Shown here: one piece after another, positions 6,810 through 15,009 of the stretch
How positions within the stretch are numbered: position 1 is the stretch's first letter
Layout: the number at the start of each line of letters is the position of its first letter
Notes under the pieces: model-generated
The model's input: only the letters and a program-made list of their open reading frames with translations
Database searches by the model: none
Told to the model about the DNA's origin: nothing
Made by a program: the position numbers and the translations under genes
Assembly: GCF_949769195.1 (NCBI RefSeq)
Contig: NZ_OX458333.1
Location: 4,250,001-4,314,000, forward strand
Direction of reading: 5' to 3'
Source: Methylocaldum szegediense
GTDB taxonomy: Bacteria; Pseudomonadota; Gammaproteobacteria; Methylococcales; Methylococcaceae
DNA length: 64,000 nt

Positions 6810-8384
6810 TCAACCCGTCCGTCTTAGCGGTTTCAGTCCGAGCCGCCTTGCGAGACGATGCAGGTTGCCCCGATCCAGACCTAAGCGGCGGGCGGTTTCC
6901 GACCAATTGAAGCGACATTCGCCCAGCGTCTTGAGGATTAGTTGGCGCTGAAAATCGTCCACCGCGCGCGTCAGAGAGATCGAGCCCGGCCCTGGTGGCA
7001 TGCCGCCCTTGGCGTCCATGTTTCGGAGAACCTCGGGCCCGATATCCAAATCGTCCGGCTGTAAGGTTAGCGAGCGTCCGCGTTCCGCCGACGCGCGCAG
7101 GGCGGCGCGGAGAATGACGTGTTCGAGCTCCCGTACGTTTCCGGGCCAAGAATAGGCTGTCAACACTTCGATCGTTGCGGGTGCAAGGTTAATTCGGTCC
7201 AGGCCTAAACGGGTCCGGGCCTGATCCAGAAAATGGCCGGCCAAGGGCGCGATATCGGAGGGTCTTTCCCGCAGCGGAGGTACGTGCAAAGGATATACGC
7301 TGAGCCGATGGTAAAGGTCAGCGCGGAATCTTCCAGCCTTCACTTCTTCGGCGAGCTGCCGATTTGTCGCCGCAATGATTCGGACGTCCGCCCGGTGGCT
7401 TTTGTCCGAGCCGAGGCGCTGAATTTCGCCGAACTGCAAGGCGCGCAGCAGCTTCGCCTGGACGGAGAGCGGCAGTTCGCCGACTTCGTCCAGAAACAGA
7501 GTGCCTCCCTCCGCTAATTCGAATTTGCCGGCCCGATCGGTGCTAGCACCGGTAAAAGCGCCGCGGACATGCCCGAATAATTCGCTTTCGGCCAGCGTTT
7601 CCGGGAGTGCCGCGCAGTTCACGTACACAAGAGGCTGGTCAGAGCGCAGGGACTGCGCGTGTATGACGCGGGCGACCACCTCCTTGCCGACCCCGGTTTC
7701 CCCTGTGATCAGGACCGTAAGATCGGATCGGGCGACAATGCCGATGTTGCGCTTCAGTTCCTGCAAAGCAGGACTGTCGCCGATGAGCTGTCCGCCGCCA
7801 CGTTGCAGGGCTTCGTTCACCAGCTCGCTGGTTACCAGTTCGCGATGTTTGGCCAACCGTTCGAGCGCACTGATGAAGGACTCGTGGCGAAGCGCCACCG
7901 TTGCTATAGCGGCGAAAGTCTGGAAAACGTCATCGTGAAGGCCGTCGAAGGCGCCTGGGTTCAAGGCATCCGCCGACAATACTCCGAGTAGGGTGTTTTC
8001 GTTGTAAAGGCTACAACCGATACAGGAATGTACCCGCAAACTACCGCCGGCGTCGTTCAGCAACAGCGAATCGTAGGGATCGGGTCTTGGGTCGTCGGGT
8101 GGGAATCGGACTGGCGTTCTCGAACTGAGTATCGCCGCGAACCGGGGATGTTGTTCTGGATGAAATTGGCGTCCCATGACCTCCGGCGAGAGACCCCGGG
8201 TGGCCACGGGCACGAGTACCCCGTCTTGAAACCGCAACACGGCACAAGCGTGATTTCCCGTCACCTTGGCGAAAATTTCGAGAAACCCCTCGATCCGCTC
8301 CTTCATCGAGAGATTGGCCGTGAGGCTCAAGACGGCTTCGCGAATCGCACTCTCGATGGTTCTTATCTTTGAGCGTTCGGTCAT
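6810..8384 (-). CDS. norR: NorR-type nitric oxide-responsive sigma-54 activator
   Basis: 524 residues with the three NorR domains in order: GAF (about 20-175), sigma-54 AAA+ (about 205-430) and a Fis-type HTH at the C-terminus (SETARRLGLDRGNLHRLARRL). The AAA+ domain has Walker A GETGVGKE, the sigma-54 contact loop GAFTGA and NVRELEH. In the GAF domain, His119, Cys121, Asp102, Asp105 and Asp139 occur where E. coli NorR places non-haem iron ligands, by alignment from memory. NorR binds NO at that iron and then activates sigma-54 polymerase. Three palindromic sites lie upstream, two within 40 bp of its own start, so autoregulation is likely. No NO reductase or flavorubredoxin gene is next to it. 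Confidence 0.88.
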   Translation of the reverse strand: MTERSKIRTIESAIREAVLSLTANLSMKERIEGFLEIFAKVTGNHACAVLRFQDGVLVPVATRGLSPEVMGRQFHPEQHPRFAAILSSRTPVRFPPDDPRPDPYDSLLLNDAGGSLRVHSCIGCSLYNENTLLGVLSADALNPGAFDGLHDDVFQTFAAIATVALRHESFISALERLAKHRELVTSELVNEALQRGGGQLIGDSPALQELKRNIGIVARSDLTVLITGETGVGKEVVARVIHAQSLRSDQPLVYVNCAALPETLAESELFGHVRGAFTGASTDRAGKFELAEGGTLFLDEVGELPLSVQAKLLRALQFGEIQRLGSDKSHRADVRIIAATNRQLAEEVKAGRFRADLYHRLSVYPLHVPPLRERPSDIAPLAGHFLDQARTRLGLDRINLAPATIEVLTAYSWPGNVRELEHVILRAALRASAERGRSLTLQPDDLDIGPEVLRNMDAKGGMPPGPGSISLTRAVDDFQRQLILKTLGECRFNWSETARRLGLDRGNLHRLARRLGLKPLRRTG

Positions 8385-8399
8385 ACTCGAAGATTCGTA

Positions 8400-8410
8400 G
8401 TCACTTTGAC
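8400..8410. promoter_or_regulatory. Putative NorR enhancer site 1
   Basis: GTCACTTTGAC, a perfect GTCA-N3-TGAC palindrome that fits the GT-N7-AC pattern known for NorR. It lies 16 bp upstream of the norR start codon, so binding here could also repress norR. Confidence 0.7.
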
Positions 8411-8415
8411 AAGAA

Positions 8416-8434
8416 TGCTGTCAGAATGACAGCA
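8416..8434. promoter_or_regulatory. Putative NorR enhancer site 2
   Basis: GTCAGAATGAC (8420-8430) inside a longer inverted repeat with eight-base arms TGCTGTCA/TGACAGCA. Its centre is exactly 20 bp from site 1, about two helical turns, so the two sites lie on the same face of the DNA. Confidence 0.7.
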
Positions 8435-8542
8435 ATTCCATCCTTTTTCAATTCGGCTTTCGTTCCGGAGCACTCCAGCGCACGAGCCCTTATCTTCGGG
8501 CGTCGGACGCCGCGGCCTGCCGCCGAACGATTTCGAGTCGAT

Positions 8543-8553
8543 GTCAATATGAC
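8543..8553. promoter_or_regulatory. Putative NorR enhancer site 3
   Basis: GTCAATATGAC, the third GTCA-N3-TGAC copy in the divergent region. It is centred about 86 bp upstream of the start expected from the -24/-12 promoter, a usual distance for a sigma-54 enhancer. E. coli norR-norVW also carries three sites. Confidence 0.7.
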
Positions 8554-8606
8554 GACGCCTGGGTGATCGTGATCAAAATATCGAATCAAATCAAAGGGAT
8601 ATATCA

Positions 8607-8622
8607 TGGCAGGGATTTTGCT
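8607..8622 (+). promoter_or_regulatory. Sigma-54 (-24/-12) promoter
   Basis: TGGCAGGGATTTTGCT matches the sigma-54 consensus TGGCACG-N4-TTGCW at all fixed positions except the C of the -24 box, with correct spacing. Transcription should start near 8634, giving a leader of about 108 nt before the lipoprotein gene. An A/T-rich stretch (8575-8605) between site 3 and the promoter could hold a bending site for IHF, but no clean consensus is present. Confidence 0.75.
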
Positions 8623-8741
8623 CAAGAGCGTGCAAGGCGTAGCCGATCAGGTATCCCCACGGTACGCCCGGACGAATTTCACTTGGCAGAGCGGCGTTCC
8701 ATGGCCGCAAATATTTCACGGGCTCTAGTGATCACCACCCT

Positions 8742-9632
8742 ATGAGGCGTTATAGCGTATTGCTGATATTGCTCGCAGCACTGAGCGGCTGCCTTGCTCC
8801 CCCCATTCGACCGCCGGCGGCCGAGACGGTCGACATGCGAACCGTGCTCGTGATTCCCGTGGAGCCGCCCCCGCTCGAAGTGAGCCCGGATCTGATCGAA
8901 TCGCGACTGCCCATCTACCGGCAACACGACACCGTGCCATTCGATCTTTTCCTGGAAAGGAAAATTTATCGAAATCCCGGCGGGGTAATGATCGCGGGTC
9001 TGGTTGCCCATGACGACATCGTTCCAGAGATGGTCACCCGGCGAGCGCCGATGACGACGTCGAGCATCCCTGGGCTGCAGTCGGCCAAAGCACTCGGCGA
9101 GAACTGGGTCCCCACTTTCGCGCTCGCGCGTGAAGCGGTCTCGCAGCTGATGTCCGGTGGTCTCGAAGCCGTTGCCTCCGGGCATTATTACCCGCTTCCG
9201 CTTGCTCCGAACGAGCGCACGGCAAACTTAGCGTTTTGGCGTGGCGCTATCCGAGACTGGTACAATCAAGACACCTCGCCGGTCGATTATCGCTTGCACG
9301 GACCGGGACGAATTGATGCGGTTTTGGAGGTGGGCATCGGGACTTACCGGATTTTCGAGGCCCAGGCTCCCTTGCAGGTTTTGGTCAAGCTGATAGACCC
9401 GGTATCCCGAAAGGTCATCGGCAGAACCGCAGCCGAGGCTTTTCCGGTCGAAGGGACGGCACCGGAACTGCTTGCTCGGGAAGCGGAGAAGTTCAAACAG
9501 CTCGTGTCGACGGTTGGTGCGAAGCTCATTGAACAAAGCTTGAGCGATTTAGGATTGCCGGTAACCCGGAGTGTCCGGCAGGATGAGCGGAGTACCGAGA
9601 CGGCTGTTGCAGACGGGATCTCGACTCTGTGA
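8742..9632 (+). CDS. Lipoprotein of unknown function, first gene of the NorR-linked efflux operon
   Basis: 296 residues. The signal peptide ends in a lipobox (LSGC, Cys17), so the protein should be lipid-anchored. I recognise no domain. The mature part has a proline-rich start (CLAPPIRPPAAE), a conserved-looking middle (about 95-170) and an alternating-hydrophobic section (IDAVLEVGIGTYRIFEAQAPLQ) that suggests beta strands. Its TGA stop overlaps the GTG start of the MFS gene (GTGA), implying translational coupling. The position suggests a periplasmic or outer-membrane accessory of the pump, but that is inference. No strong ribosome-binding site is visible. Confidence 0.7.
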   Translation: MRRYSVLLILLAALSGCLAPPIRPPAAETVDMRTVLVIPVEPPPLEVSPDLIESRLPIYRQHDTVPFDLFLERKIYRNPGGVMIAGLVAHDDIVPEMVTRRAPMTTSSIPGLQSAKALGENWVPTFALAREAVSQLMSGGLEAVASGHYYPLPLAPNERTANLAFWRGAIRDWYNQDTSPVDYRLHGPGRIDAVLEVGIGTYRIFEAQAPLQVLVKLIDPVSRKVIGRTAAEAFPVEGTAPELLAREAEKFKQLVSTVGAKLIEQSLSDLGLPVTRSVRQDERSTETAVADGISTL

Positions 9633-11224
9633 CGGTCGTCTTTCCCCGGCCCCTGCGTGGCTGGCGCTTTGTGCTTTTCAACTTGGCGCTGGGCCTGGGG
9701 CACATGGTCGTACTGTTCAATGCCGGCTCGTACATCGCCTTGATGCCGCATGTTGCAGGGGACCTCGGCGGCGTATTGCCGAGTCTTGGCACTTGGGCGC
9801 AGACCGACTTCATGATCGCGTTGGCGCTCGCGTTTCCCATCGCTCGATGGCTGGCGGGGCGCTTCGGTGACTATCGGTTATTCGCCACAGCGTTCGTGGG
9901 CTACGCGATAGCGTCTTATCTTTGCGCTATCAGCGAAACCATGCAGCTGTTTTTGCCCTCCCGCATTTTCCTTGGTTTCACAGGCGGTATCACACTTCCC
10001 ATCGGGCAGGCTCTGTTGTTGAAGGAGTATCCCCCTAGGATCAAATCGATAGGGCTCGGGATTTGGGGGTTATTCACCCTGATGCCGTTTACCATTGGTT
10101 TTCCCATTGGTGGCTGGTTGGCCGACGAGCTCGGCTGGCGTTATCTTTTTTATTTCAATATTCCGGTAGCCTTGACGATTGCCGGCGTGACCGGGTCTTT
10201 GCTGTACGGTCGGGGGTTCCAGCGCCGCTACACCCGTTTCGATTTTGTCGGGTTCCTGCTGTTAACCCTGATACTTGGTGGCCTTCAAACGATTCTGAAC
10301 ATGGGCAACGATTTCGACTGGTTCGATTCGCCGTTTTTGCGCGGCGTGTTGATCACCGTACTCGTGGCGCTGCCCTGCTTCATCATTTGGGAACTGGGTG
10401 AACGACATCCCGCACTCGACATCCGGCTATTCGCCCACCGCAATTTCACCATCGGTGTCATTTGCCTGATCTTGGGCTTTCTATCGATTCAGGGGCTGCT
10501 CTCGTTATTCATCGTCCAGCTTCAGTTACTGCTGGGCTACACTTCGTTTCTTGCCAGCCTTGTGTTCGTCGTGATGATTTTTCTGGCGGCACCGGTGATT
10601 GCCATCATGCATGAACTCATCAAGGGTACCGACGCGCGGATATTCGCTTGCATGAATTTATTGGGCTTGGCTTTCACCTTGAATTGGATCGGGCGGTTCG
10701 ACGATCCCGGCTCCTTCGATCAAATTATTTGGCCTATGCTTCTGCTCGGGTTTTTCCTGGGTTCGTTCTTCACTCCGCTGACCGCGATCGCGCTACATCG
10801 CCTGTCGCCGAACCAGATGACGCGAGCCGCAGAAGAGGCGGCGGCGCTACGTATCGCCGCTGGCGCGTATGGCATTACCTTACAGGGCGTCATGCTGTTT
10901 AGGCGTACCCCGTTTCACCAGCTTCACCTAGCCGATCAATTCGGAGGACGTCGGTTTCCGTCTTTAGACGTGTTGCGGCCGCTTGCCTCGCGCCTCGAGG
11001 CGGCCGGTCTCGATCCCGGTATGGTGCAGGCAAAGCTTTTCGCCATCCTCAAGCAGCAGTCCGCCATTTTGGCGCTCAACGACGCCTTTCTGATGGCCAG
11101 TTATCTTTTTTTGGGACTGGCCGGGCTGGTATGGCTCGCCCACCCGACTCACCGGCCGCTGCACCCGAAGCCGGCCGCGGATTTGAGAGAGATCCGAGGC
11201 GAGGAGCTGATGGAGCAGCCATGA
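9629..11224 (+). CDS. EmrB-type MFS efflux transporter (DHA2, 14-TM)
   Basis: 531 residues starting at a GTG that overlaps the lipoprotein stop. About 14 hydrophobic segments and the motif region ARWLAGRFGDYRLF after the second helix mark a DHA2-type drug:H+ antiporter, the inner-membrane motor of EmrAB-TolC-like pumps. The long non-helical stretch between the last two helices (about 385-465) is also usual for DHA2 proteins. Its stop overlaps the next gene's ATG (ATGA). With the OMF and adaptor downstream this gives a complete tripartite pump. The substrate is unknown; control by NorR suggests a product of nitrosative stress or a NO-related signal. Confidence 0.88.
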   Translation: MTVVFPRPLRGWRFVLFNLALGLGHMVVLFNAGSYIALMPHVAGDLGGVLPSLGTWAQTDFMIALALAFPIARWLAGRFGDYRLFATAFVGYAIASYLCAISETMQLFLPSRIFLGFTGGITLPIGQALLLKEYPPRIKSIGLGIWGLFTLMPFTIGFPIGGWLADELGWRYLFYFNIPVALTIAGVTGSLLYGRGFQRRYTRFDFVGFLLLTLILGGLQTILNMGNDFDWFDSPFLRGVLITVLVALPCFIIWELGERHPALDIRLFAHRNFTIGVICLILGFLSIQGLLSLFIVQLQLLLGYTSFLASLVFVVMIFLAAPVIAIMHELIKGTDARIFACMNLLGLAFTLNWIGRFDDPGSFDQIIWPMLLLGFFLGSFFTPLTAIALHRLSPNQMTRAAEEAAALRIAAGAYGITLQGVMLFRRTPFHQLHLADQFGGRRFPSLDVLRPLASRLEAAGLDPGMVQAKLFAILKQQSAILALNDAFLMASYLFLGLAGLVWLAHPTHRPLHPKPAADLREIRGEELMEQP

Positions 11225-12723
11225 GGTTGGGAACGATCCATCGTCGCCTGCTCGCGGGCTCCCTAGCGCTATTTCTGATCGGGGGTTGCGCCTGGATTCC
11301 TTCGGGCGGCCAACGTGCCGAGTTCACCCAAACGCCGCCGGATATGGCCCAGAAATTGTCCGCGGTCCGCGGAGACGAGTCGCTGAAGGTGCGACCGTCT
11401 TGGCCCAACAACCGCTGGTGGCTGCAGTTCGGCAGTTCCGAGCTGAACTATCTAATGGATATGGCGCTCAAGGACAATCCCGGCGTCAAGGCGGCTGCGG
11501 CGAGGTTACGCGAGGCGGAAGGTTTCGCCCGGGTCGAAGGGGCGAGGCTACTGCCCTTCCTCGACGCTGAGGCGGAGGTCGCAACGGCACGGTTTTCGGA
11601 GTACAGCGTCAATGTCGCCCTAAGAGGTGCGCATACCGTCTCGGCGCTGATCAATCCTTTTAGCCTACGCTACGAATTCGATTTCTGGGGTAAGAATCGT
11701 GCCGCGTTGGAAGCGGCCCTCGGCGAAGCGGCGGCCGAAGAGGCGGAGCTGGCCAAAGTCAGGCTGCAATTGACGGCGGCGATAGCGAGATGTTACTTCC
11801 GAGGCGTCGCGCTACGCCAACAGCTCGATTTGGCGGAAGAGATGGTCGGCTTGCGGCGGCAATTGCTCGAACTGGCAAGGACGCGCTATGACTTGGGTTT
11901 GGATTCCGCTGATCCCGTCAAGCAGGCCGAAACGGAACTACAGACGGCCAGCAAGCGCCACGCCGCGACCCGTGACTATTTGGACCTGCAGCGTAACCTG
12001 TTGGCGCGTCTGATTGGCCGCGGTCCCGATGCTACACAGCACCTGTTCAACCGGCGGGTCAATCTGCCCGAAAGAATTCCGCTGCCCGAGAAGCTTCCCC
12101 TGGAACTGCTCGCCCATCGCCCGGATCTGGCGGCAGCACTGCACAGGGCCGAAGCGGCCGCGCAGCGGATCAAGGTGGCTAAAGCCAGCTTTTACCCGAC
12201 CGTCGATTTGACGGCTTTTGTCGGGTTCAACGCGTTGCGTATGACCAAGGGTGCGAGCTCCCTCGCCAATATTCTGTTTTCGGGGAACAGCTTCGCGTAC
12301 GGCGTCGCGCCCGGCGTTAGGCTTCCTATTTTCGAGGGGGGACGTCTGCGCGGTCAATTGTCGGTACAGCGGGCGGAATACGACGAGGCCGTTGAGCTTT
12401 ACAACAAGACTCTGCTGCAGGCGATTCAGGAAGTCGCCGATAGCCTCAGTAATTGGCGCGACACTCAAAAAATTGTCGAGGCGCAGAACCGTCTGTTGAC
12501 TTCGCAGCGCGAGGCGCTCGATCTCGCCCTGGAGCGGCTTCGAAGCGGTTTAGACGACCGCCGAGCGGTGCTGGCGCGCCAGCACGCCGTATTGGATCAC
12601 GAGTACGCGCTAAAGACGTTTGAAACCGATCAGTATGTCGCCATGACCGATCTTATTGAGGCCTTGGGCGGAGGCTATTCGAACGGTCTCGACGCCACAC
12701 GCCTGCAGCCGATGTCGGATTGA
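11221..12723 (+). CDS. NodT/TolC-type outer-membrane efflux lipoprotein
   Basis: 500 residues, started at the ATG that overlaps the MFS stop; the frame is open further upstream, inside the MFS gene. The signal peptide ends in IGGC, so it is a lipoprotein like NodT/OprM relatives. Two repeated outer-membrane-efflux domains follow, with the usual motifs (RYEFDFWGKNRAALEAA, ARTRYDLGLDS, LLAHRPDLAAALHRAEAA, VRLPIFEGGRLRGQL). Members form trimers that make the outer-membrane channel and periplasmic tunnel of tripartite pumps. Confidence 0.9.
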   Translation: MRLGTIHRRLLAGSLALFLIGGCAWIPSGGQRAEFTQTPPDMAQKLSAVRGDESLKVRPSWPNNRWWLQFGSSELNYLMDMALKDNPGVKAAAARLREAEGFARVEGARLLPFLDAEAEVATARFSEYSVNVALRGAHTVSALINPFSLRYEFDFWGKNRAALEAALGEAAAEEAELAKVRLQLTAAIARCYFRGVALRQQLDLAEEMVGLRRQLLELARTRYDLGLDSADPVKQAETELQTASKRHAATRDYLDLQRNLLARLIGRGPDATQHLFNRRVNLPERIPLPEKLPLELLAHRPDLAAALHRAEAAAQRIKVAKASFYPTVDLTAFVGFNALRMTKGASSLANILFSGNSFAYGVAPGVRLPIFEGGRLRGQLSVQRAEYDEAVELYNKTLLQAIQEVADSLSNWRDTQKIVEAQNRLLTSQREALDLALERLRSGLDDRRAVLARQHAVLDHEYALKTFETDQYVAMTDLIEALGGGYSNGLDATRLQPMSD

Positions 12724-12847
12724 TAAGATTCCTGCCTAACGATGGGCCAAGTCCCGACGCGATTCTGTTAAGCCAAGAAGTAGCTCCATCCGCATAATTC
12801 GAACAATAAATTAGAACAATAAATCTGGGAAACTCACGCAAGCACGT

Positions 12848-14104
12848 ATGAAGATTCATCCCAAGGCGATTCGCGCCCGCCGTAATCGTCGTTTGTTGCT
12901 GGTGGCTCTAGCCGTGGTCGCGAGTGCGCTGAGCTATGCCGTGTATTGGTGGATTCACGGCCGGTTCTGGGTCGTAACCGACAATGCCTTCGTCGCCGGC
13001 AATCTGATCCCGGTCGAAGCGGATACCACCGGCATCGTCACCCAGGTCCTGGTCGAAGAAACCCAATTCGTGAACAAGGGCGACCTCCTGGTTCAGCTCG
13101 ACGAACACCGCGCTTACGCCGCCCTGGGACAAAGCGAAGGCGACTTGGGGCGGACCGTGCGCAGCATCGGCGCCCTGTTTGCGACACGCCAGCAACTCTG
13201 CCGGAAACGGGATGCACGCTCGGCCCTGCTCGCCCGAGTACGCCATGACGTGATTCGCTTCCGCCAGGCGTATCCGAGCGGTTCAGTTTCGGAGCAAGTC
13301 TTGCAAAACGCCGAGGATCAGATGACCGCGCTCGGGGCGGAACTGCGTGAGGTCGGGGCGGAACTCCAGGCCATTGAGGCACGCGTGGGGGGCACCAGCC
13401 GCACCGAACACCCCGAGATCGAAGCCGCCAAACACCGGTTTATCGAGGCTTATCTGGATTTCGTGAGGCAGCGTATTCGGGCGCCTGTGTCGGGTTATGT
13501 GGCGAAGCGCAAGGTCCAGGTGGGCGACCGGGTCCACCCCGGAGACCTGTTGCTCATGGTAGTGCCCCTGGATCATTTGTGGGTGGAGGCGAACCTGCGC
13601 GAGACTGAGTTGCGTAAGGTTCGGCCGGGCCAGTCGGCCGAAGTGATCGTCGATCTCTACGGTCGGCGTCGGCTTTATCACGGCACGGTCGAAGGGCTGG
13701 TGCCCGGCACTGGCAGTGTGTTCGCCCTGCTGCCGCCGGACAATGCCACTGGCAATTTCATTCATATCGTCCAGCGGGTGCCGGTGCGCATTGCTTTGCG
13801 GAAAGACGAGATTCTGAAACGACCGATTCGTCCGGGACTATCCACGGTGACTTCGATCCATATCGGCGAGCCCGGCCAGCCGGTGAATACCTCGCTGGCT
13901 GATACATCCGCAGAGGCGTACCGAACGGATATTTTCAGCGAAGAACTTGCCGCCGCGGAACGCAAGGCGGAGGAAATCATCCAGGCCAATGTGGTGCCTA
14001 AAGACGATCTCTTGGAATCCTCTTGCACTTGGTCCGACATGTCCGTTGAATCTCCACATCAAACTGAGCGAACCAAAAGAGGCGGTCCAAAAGCAGTCCA
14101 GTGA
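12848..14104 (+). CDS. EmrA/HlyD-type periplasmic adaptor protein
   Basis: 418 residues. A short basic N-terminus is followed by one membrane helix (about 18-36), a biotinyl-lipoyl-like half-motif (VEADTTGIVTQVLVEETQFVNKGD), an alpha-helical hairpin (about 95-185) and the second lipoyl half (RIRAPVSGYVAKRKVQVGDRV). A beta-barrel domain completes the usual EmrA layout. The C-terminal ~65 residues are an extra polar tail. It lies 124 bp after the OMF gene, unlike the overlapping upstream genes. A direct repeat GAACAATAAAT occurs twice (12801, 12814) in that gap, so it may have its own promoter. Confidence 0.88.
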   Translation: MKIHPKAIRARRNRRLLLVALAVVASALSYAVYWWIHGRFWVVTDNAFVAGNLIPVEADTTGIVTQVLVEETQFVNKGDLLVQLDEHRAYAALGQSEGDLGRTVRSIGALFATRQQLCRKRDARSALLARVRHDVIRFRQAYPSGSVSEQVLQNAEDQMTALGAELREVGAELQAIEARVGGTSRTEHPEIEAAKHRFIEAYLDFVRQRIRAPVSGYVAKRKVQVGDRVHPGDLLLMVVPLDHLWVEANLRETELRKVRPGQSAEVIVDLYGRRRLYHGTVEGLVPGTGSVFALLPPDNATGNFIHIVQRVPVRIALRKDEILKRPIRPGLSTVTSIHIGEPGQPVNTSLADTSAEAYRTDIFSEELAAAERKAEEIIQANVVPKDDLLESSCTWSDMSVESPHQTERTKRGGPKAVQ

Positions 14105-14556: not shown

Positions 14557-15009
14557 ATGTTAACCAAGTTCGGTCCTAGGCTTGGCAGGTTTACGTCGTC
14601 TTTTTTCACGGCTGCTCTGTTGGCTTCAGCGAGTTCGGTAGTCGCCGCAAAGGAATGCTGGCTCGATCTTTACGACCAAGCGGATTATCAAGGCTCCCAC
14701 GTCCGAGTGAAAGGACCGGCCGAGTTGCCCAGCCTCAAGTCGCTGAACGGTGAGGACTGGAGCAATCGCATCGAAAGTTTGATCGTCGGTCCGGATGCCG
14801 AGGTTTATGCCTTTAAGCAGGAAAATTTCGAAGATACTCCCCAAGGACCGGTCTACCACGAGAACGAGCTTCAAGCTTGGGGAGAAAAGGATATTGCGAG
14901 CGCTCAGGACTTAAAGATCAGTTTCGGTCCAGGAACCAAGCAACACCACTTAGGAGACTTAAATTTTCACCGCAACATTAATTCGCTGAAAGTTCAGTGT
15001 CGCCGGTGA
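14557..15009 (+). CDS. Secreted beta/gamma-crystallin-like protein
   Basis: 150 residues with AAAAGGAG just upstream of the ATG. A signal peptide (about 1-31, cleavage after VVAA) precedes a domain that opens CWLDLYDQADYQGSHVRV and continues LNGEDWSNRIESLIVGPDAEVYAFKQENF. This is the pattern of a beta/gamma-crystallin Greek-key pair: an aromatic-rich strand, a D/N-S calcium-type site and spaced YxG/F residues. Bacterial members bind Ca2+ and are secreted or periplasmic; their jobs are mostly unknown. Two Cys (first of the mature protein and CRR at the end) could form a disulphide. Confidence 0.65.
   Translation: MLTKFGPRLGRFTSSFFTAALLASASSVVAAKECWLDLYDQADYQGSHVRVKGPAELPSLKSLNGEDWSNRIESLIVGPDAEVYAFKQENFEDTPQGPVYHENELQAWGEKDIASAQDLKISFGPGTKQHHLGDLNFHRNINSLKVQCRR

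Follow-up and report, generated by a model that had tools for sequence, protein, structure and literature searches.

The window analysed here is a 64,000-nucleotide stretch of the Methylocaldum szegediense genome (NZ_OX458333.1, positions 4,250,001–4,314,000), in which a gene for a NorR-type regulator lies divergent from an operon encoding a tripartite exporter, the two being separated by an intergenic gap of 358 bp. The norR gene (6810..8384, minus strand) encodes a predicted sigma-54-dependent, nitric oxide (NO)-responsive activator, called NorR1 below. On the plus strand, the operon begins with a lipoprotein gene carrying an LSGC lipobox (8742..9632), followed by genes for an EmrB-type DHA2 transporter of the major facilitator superfamily (MFS; 9629..11224), a NodT/VceC-type outer membrane factor (OMF) lipoprotein (11221..12723), and an EmrA-type periplasmic adaptor (12848..14104). 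The lipoprotein and MFS genes overlap by GTGA and the MFS and OMF genes by ATGA, the OMF start being most likely at 11221 rather than at 11131, and a spacer of 124 bp separates the OMF gene from that of the adaptor. Both the gene identities and the translational coupling across the first three genes agree with the preliminary description of the locus, which had been made from the sequence alone.

Predicted NorR sites and sigma-54 promoter

Three exact GTCA-N3-TGAC sites were found in the gap at the positions where the preliminary description had placed them. Site 1, GTCACTTTGAC, lies at 8400–8410, and a metagenome-assembled genome (MAG) of the same genus has GTTATTTAGAC there. Site 2, GTCAGAATGAC, at 8420–8430, is located inside the 17-bp palindrome GCTGTCAGAATGACAGC, and two genomes of the same genus carry GTCAGGATGAC instead. 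Site 3, GTCAATATGAC, at 8543–8553, is the promoter-proximal one and precedes by 64 bp (start to start) the −24 element of a plus-strand sigma-54 promoter, TGGCAGGGATTTTGC (8607–8621), which differs by one mismatch from TGGCAC-N5-TTGC and bears out the −24/−12 box earlier proposed between norR and the pump genes. Transcription would be expected to start near 8633. The pump promoter is thus preceded by tandem GT-N7-AC operators, and rpoN is present in one copy in the 4.9-Mb genome.

Four GTCA-N3-TGAC sites occur in the window compared with 0.69 expected, none of 100 shuffles reached four, and the probability of at least three falling in the 358-bp gap is about 1e-8. In the whole genome, 82 copies were counted, which is near the naive random expectation (estimated at ~75) and is uninformative alone. 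The −24/−12 boxes by themselves were not significantly enriched in the window (65 vs 62 expected), therefore only the geometry of the site–box pair was given weight. On both strands of the window, this promoter was the one place where a site with at most one mismatch stood 58–70 bp ahead of a −24/−12 box, and the strict pair, with the spacing left free, had a single occurrence in the entire genome. A relaxed scan of the same genome yielded four matches vs two in the reversed control, hence further NorR1 targets are not claimed.

Conservation of the site–promoter arrangement in Methylococcales

A profile search with the lipoprotein over 311 genomes of the order Methylococcales detected its family in 68 genomes, while NorR was present in 65. 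The pump operon occurred in two contexts, divergent either from norR or from the gene of a LysR-type regulator. Among the upstream regions compared (18 norR-linked and 15 LysR-linked), a NorR site was found 63–65 bp before a −24/−12 box in 17 of the norR-linked and in none of the LysR-linked ones (Fisher test, 1.5e-8, close relatives not being independent), and the norR-linked promoters had no site–box pair in the other spacing bins between 20 and 96 bp. Two additional norR-linked loci, G391 (64 bp) and G409 (65 bp, its norR facing the MFS gene directly), raised the total to 19 of 20. The pattern was seen in eight norR-linked genera (g1, g3, g276, g282, g283, g295, g297, and g304), g294 being the exception. 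Gene order and sites are shared by at least nine genera in two families, as the preliminary description had suggested looking for. The norR-linked operon of two genomes (G448 and G449) has no lipoprotein gene. The strongest single case is G401, because linkage cannot account for its site and box: norR is located 120 kb from the pump, and yet the pump genes are preceded by GTCATGCTGAC and, 66 bp further on, by TGGCATCGCATTTGC. The 19 promoters together with G401 support the proposed control of the pump by NorR and sigma-54, so far as comparison of sequences can.

These data also bear on the possibility that the sites merely autoregulate norR and that the pump is a bystander transcribed from a promoter of its own. 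Sites 1 and 2 lie only 16–46 bp upstream of the norR start, and single sites upstream of norR2 in Vibrionales have been interpreted as autoregulatory (PMC1274295). Site 3, however, is 159 bp from norR and at a fixed distance of 63–65 bp from a box directed toward the pump, the G401 site and box precede the pump with norR far away, and the LysR-linked copies of the operon have neither site nor box. A search for a sigma-70-like promoter before the pump genes, which is a weak test, found none. The bystander explanation is accordingly regarded as highly improbable.

Identity of NorR1 and its predicted NO-sensing site

NorR1 scored 670.9 bits against the NF003451 equivalog model, 195 bits above the cut-off of 476, and contains GAF, AAA+ (Sigma54_activat), and Fis-type helix–turn–helix (HTH_8) domains, including the GAFTGA loop that contacts sigma-54. 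When aligned to E. coli NorR (L124), all seven iron-site residues were identical (R75, D96, Y98, D99, H111, C113, and D131 in E. coli numbering); the roles of R75, Y98, D99, H111, and C113, as well as of R81, have been documented (PMC2941729). By these features, NorR1 is a genuine NorR with a predicted NO-sensing iron site that is intact.

That NorR1 responds to a signal other than NO could be argued from position 81, where Ser replaces the Arg on which repression depends in E. coli, and from the relative G581, whose pump-linked NorR has lost its iron ligands. On the other hand, the seven residues are intact in NorR1, and 19 of 20 aligned pump-linked NorRs have them all. R81 is likewise replaced in the hcp-linked NorRs of Methylococcales (mostly by Ala, in two by Asn or Glu), and in Methylobacter, hcp is part of a response to NO and hypoxia (PMC6977074). 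We therefore think it very unlikely that another signal is sensed.

NorR paralogues and their targets

Other NorRs of the Methylococcales face hcp–hcr, genes for a RIC/YtfE-like hemerythrin and a quinol NO reductase (qNor), a flavohaemoglobin gene, or a truncated haemoglobin–ferredoxin reductase gene with NarK or norCB. In the trees, the pump-linked NorRs grouped (100/98) with those facing truncated haemoglobin–ferredoxin reductase and norCB, and the hcp- and RIC-linked NorRs fell apart from this clade. The idea that the pump-linked NorRs form an exclusive clade was abandoned, as the truncated-haemoglobin and norCB NorRs nested inside once more members were added. Since the clade also drives operons of truncated haemoglobin and NO reductase, the pump occupies the usual place of NO-removing enzymes. 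At the truncated-haemoglobin/norCB locus of G403 and G404 (L129/L130), a second NorR-like open reading frame (ORF) of 313 aa, 43% identical, was observed just downstream of norR.

Outside the order, 60 NorR loci were sampled from a phylum survey of 398 genomes. Apart from a few loci without assignment, the targets were hmp, norV, RIC, qNor, hcp, or NnrS, that is, all assigned targets were NO-stress enzymes, in line with the earlier remark that known NorR regulons switch on NO-removing functions. None of the 60 loci had a tripartite pump as the NorR target, thus within this sample the NorR–pump module is confined to Methylococcales, and rarer cases may occur elsewhere.

The genome itself encodes three NorRs, and the check on whether NorR targets lie elsewhere gave a consistent picture: the other two have other neighbours, and the third has a different type of site. 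NorR2 (locus at L083 6218–13431; G000:C1:1495217–1502430) faces an OMF–EmrA pair without an MFS gene, located upstream of the genes for a small membrane protein (116 aa) and CydA (cytochrome bd subunit I), and its operator-like sites are degenerate. NorR3 (L084) lies opposite a RIC/YtfE-like gene, which is preceded at L084 10040–10230 by three GGT-N7-ACC operators and TGGCGTGCAACTTGC, and not by operators of the GTCA-N3-TGAC type. The difference between these operators and those of NorR1 suggests that the paralogues may be insulated from each other through DNA specificity. In two congeners, the NorR2 cluster adjoins NorR3 with RIC and qNor; the quinol NO reductase gene follows RIC in these species, and only a remnant of it is left at the NorR3 locus of M. 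szegediense. The Hcp–Hcr genes of this genome adjoin a Crp/Fnr-like regulator.

The EmrA genes of the NorR1 and NorR2 loci (window 12839–13898 and L083 9930–10989) are 99.15% identical over 1060 nt, whereas the OMF proteins of the same loci are ~69% identical, which points to recent gene conversion. The ORF listing of G392 and G393 had suggested that EmrA was lost reciprocally from their two NorR loci, which was rejected since tblastn found EmrA in both G392 loci. Another element lies at L084 7584–7676, where an exact copy of GTCAATATGAC is followed 78 bp on by TGGCACCGATCCTGC, upstream of the gene of a small membrane protein (L084 7985–8524), and the NorR2 loci of the congeners show the same kind of arrangement with 77-bp spacing and a similar box; it is a possible further NorR target. 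A MAG contig titled Methyloversatilis universalis (L019, DYIL01000023.1) matched the genus of the window and is likely mislabelled.

Pump proteins and the associated lipoprotein

The MFS protein exceeded the TIGR00711 cut-off (270.5 vs 230.2 bits) and matched EmrB (8zal, E = 4e-74), and the OMF protein exceeded that of TIGR01845 (337.2 vs 210.05 bits) and matched VceC (1yc9, E = 9e-72). The adaptor matched EmrA (8zar, E = 1e-63) but remained under the EmrA equivalog cut-offs (PRK15136, 287.5 vs 563; TIGR00998, 274.9 vs 390.8), therefore it is considered an EmrA-like homologue and not an EmrA equivalog. The EmrB and EmrA structures are those of the solved EmrAB-TolC complex. By homology, the pump is EmrAB/VceC-like.

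The lipoprotein had no match in Pfam or NCBIfam, and the search of PDB sequences returned only NUP62 matches, which are meaningless. Its best match to PF05643 (PelC/GNA1162-like) had an E value of 0.044, and such a hit was seen in five of 31 family members, which falls short of assignment to that family. The family is nearly specific to the order: among the 398 genomes of the phylum survey, it was found only in the M. szegediense genome, and the class survey gave one homologue outside Methylococcales, in G028. The AlphaFold2 model of the lipoprotein (pLDDT 86) partially matched PelC, GNA1162, PqiC, and LptE-like lipoproteins in Foldseek, PelC having an E value of 8e-5 with TM-scores of 0.51–0.59 by target length and 0.25–0.28 by query length. 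On the strength of this model, a role as an outer-membrane accessory is plausible.

The pump might also carry a dedicated product, for instance a signal or a metal-binding compound, that is synthesised only in response to NO or hypoxia. Two arguments speak for this: the weak resemblance of the lipoprotein fold to accessory lipoproteins of exporters of the PelC/CsgG/GNA1162 kind, and the connection of NO with quorum sensing and with tundrenone in Methylobacter (PMC6977074). Biosynthetic genes, however, were absent from the operon and its flanks in the loci examined, and the genes after EmrA are not conserved. That the LysR-controlled version is frequent likewise speaks against a cargo confined to NO conditions, and we judge this explanation improbable. 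Downstream of the operon, a small beta/gamma-crystallin-like secreted protein is encoded at 14557–15009 and is kept in a near relative.

LysR-linked operons and regulator switching

In many Methylococcales, a conserved LysR gene is divergent from the pump operon (loci L106–L120 and L122). The MFS tree divided the pumps into two lineages, NorR- and LysR-linked members occurring in both, and the best tree implied at least about four switches of the regulator, two or three of which are forced by supported branches. A parallel between the pump-linked LysR and MexT was considered and dropped: the best NCBIfam match was HdfR, below its cut-off.

The mixture of regulators in both lineages favours a general multidrug pump that came under NO control incidentally, through stress wiring. 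Its cargo, whether housekeeping or xenobiotic, would be the same under NorR and LysR, and NO would act only as a proxy for hypoxia or competitor attack. EmrAB-type pumps are in general known to export broadly, and NO is part of the hypoxia response of Methylobacter (PMC6977074). Nevertheless, NorR control with precise promoter geometry has been kept in at least nine genera of two families, which argues that NO-triggered expression is under selection there. A general pump of this kind is a serious possibility, to which we would give somewhat less than an even chance.

Proposed NO-triggered export and its precedents

Taken together, the locus is best explained as an NO-triggered tripartite export operon, a reading to which we assign a probability of roughly 0.78. 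Its basis is a true NorR whose predicted NO-sensing iron site is intact, the putative operators, a sigma-54 promoter whose geometry resembles that in E. coli, and the conserved pairing with an EmrAB/VceC-type pump; from the promoter and NorR1 we infer that NO would induce the pump, and that export is the purpose of the response is a further inference. Activation, modelled on E. coli NorR (PMC2941729), would begin with NO binding to the ferrous centre in the GAF domain of NorR1, which would free an AAA+ ring assembled on sites 1–3 to remodel the sigma-54 RNA polymerase at 8607–8621. The lipoprotein, MFS, OMF, and adaptor genes would then be transcribed as one unit, and the proton-driven pump would act across both membranes, the lipoprotein probably assisting the exit duct from a position at the outer membrane. 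In the least certain step, small toxic compounds formed or accumulated under NO stress would be expelled, complementing the NO-consuming enzymes; candidate cargoes are metabolites modified by nitrosation or nitration or, by analogy with EmrAB, hydrophobic weak acids.

Four observations weigh against NO-triggered export. First, about half of the genomes with the operon have a LysR gene divergent from it and, as the regulator has changed at least about four times, the pump is not NO-specific by nature. Second, the three sites are spaced by 20 and 123 bp, sites 1 and 2 being far from site 3, while those of the E. coli norVW promoter form a tight trio (21 and 24 bp apart), and no such closely spaced trio is present here. 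Third, the norR-linked promoter of G443 (L094) has no promoter-proximal site, although it keeps the box and two norR-side sites. Fourth, the pump-linked NorR of G581 (L096 2636–4195) carries R75Y, Y98F, H111Q, and D131L and so has no iron ligands, yet the operators and the sigma-54 box remain; it may be a natural sensor-dead or re-tuned NorR. Considering the two pump lineages with their NorR/LysR switches, an exporter dedicated to nitrosated products is given only moderate weight, and we prefer a broad exporter, the expression of which would pay off in these lineages under NO. More tentative, and in our view rather unlikely, is an export arm of NO defence in Methylococcales. A NorR paralogue with GTCA-N3-TGAC operators, which differ from the GGT-N7-ACC operators of its sister NorR3, would there control an exporter dedicated to an NO-linked signal or to metabolites that have been nitrosated or nitrated, and the second NorR-linked OMF–EmrA cluster, found in the same genus, would add to it.

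The closest regulatory counterpart is E. coli norR–norVW, which has the same divergent norR, three operators of the GTCA-N3-TGAC-type GT-N7-AC form, a −24/−12 promoter whose box is 66 bp from the last site (64 bp here), and the same iron-site residues, but its target is flavorubredoxin and not a tripartite exporter. The NorR regulons of Rodionov et al. (2005), comprising norVW, norB, hmp, hcp, dnrN, and nnrS, similarly have norR adjoining its target, tandem sites, and a sigma-54 promoter, whereas an exporter is absent from the targets described (PMC1274295). The norR–hcp–hcr cluster of Methylobacter (PMC6977074) is also a NorR system of Methylococcales in an NO/hypoxia response; it differs in belonging to a separate NorR clade and in having Hcp–Hcr as its target.

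Concerning the pump, E. coli EmrAB-TolC and V. cholerae VceC share the combination of MFS protein, adaptor, and OMF and gave the best PDB sequence matches. EmrAB is repressed by EmrR, a MarR-type repressor, in place of which NorR stands here, and the present operon has its own OMF and an extra lipoprotein. Efflux has been linked to NO before. MexEF-OprN of P. aeruginosa is, according to Fetar et al. (2011; title as cited in PMC10848761), a tripartite exporter induced by nitrosative stress through MexT, although it is a resistance–nodulation–division (RND) pump controlled by a LysR-type regulator and not by direct NO sensing via NorR and sigma-54. E. coli expels nitrosyl indole derivatives through MdtEF (PMC4790292), a case of protective efflux during nitrate respiration, but MdtEF too is an RND pump, under ArcA and GadE/H-NS without NorR. 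In addition, a tolC mutant of Cronobacter is NO-sensitive (PMC9623651). Given MdtEF and MexEF-OprN, the idea of NO-linked efflux is not new, and what is new is the NorR wiring; the literature searched, which was mostly open access, contained no report of an efflux pump controlled by NorR. None of the three elements (NorR regulation, MFS tripartite pumps, and NO-linked efflux) is new in itself, and the novelty would lie in the direct NorR/sigma-54 control predicted for a tripartite exporter in two methanotroph families.

NorR is the textbook single-purpose NO switch, and its conserved wiring to an exporter would mean that NO stress creates a cargo worth expelling, one promoter and one pump providing a clean genetic handle for finding it. 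The repeated rewiring of one pump between NorR and LysR offers a natural experiment in regulatory evolution. Through ammonia oxidation and denitrification, methanotrophs of wetlands and sediments both generate NO and are exposed to it, hence the finding bears on their survival at low oxygen, and it suggests that they may answer NO by export as well as by its destruction.

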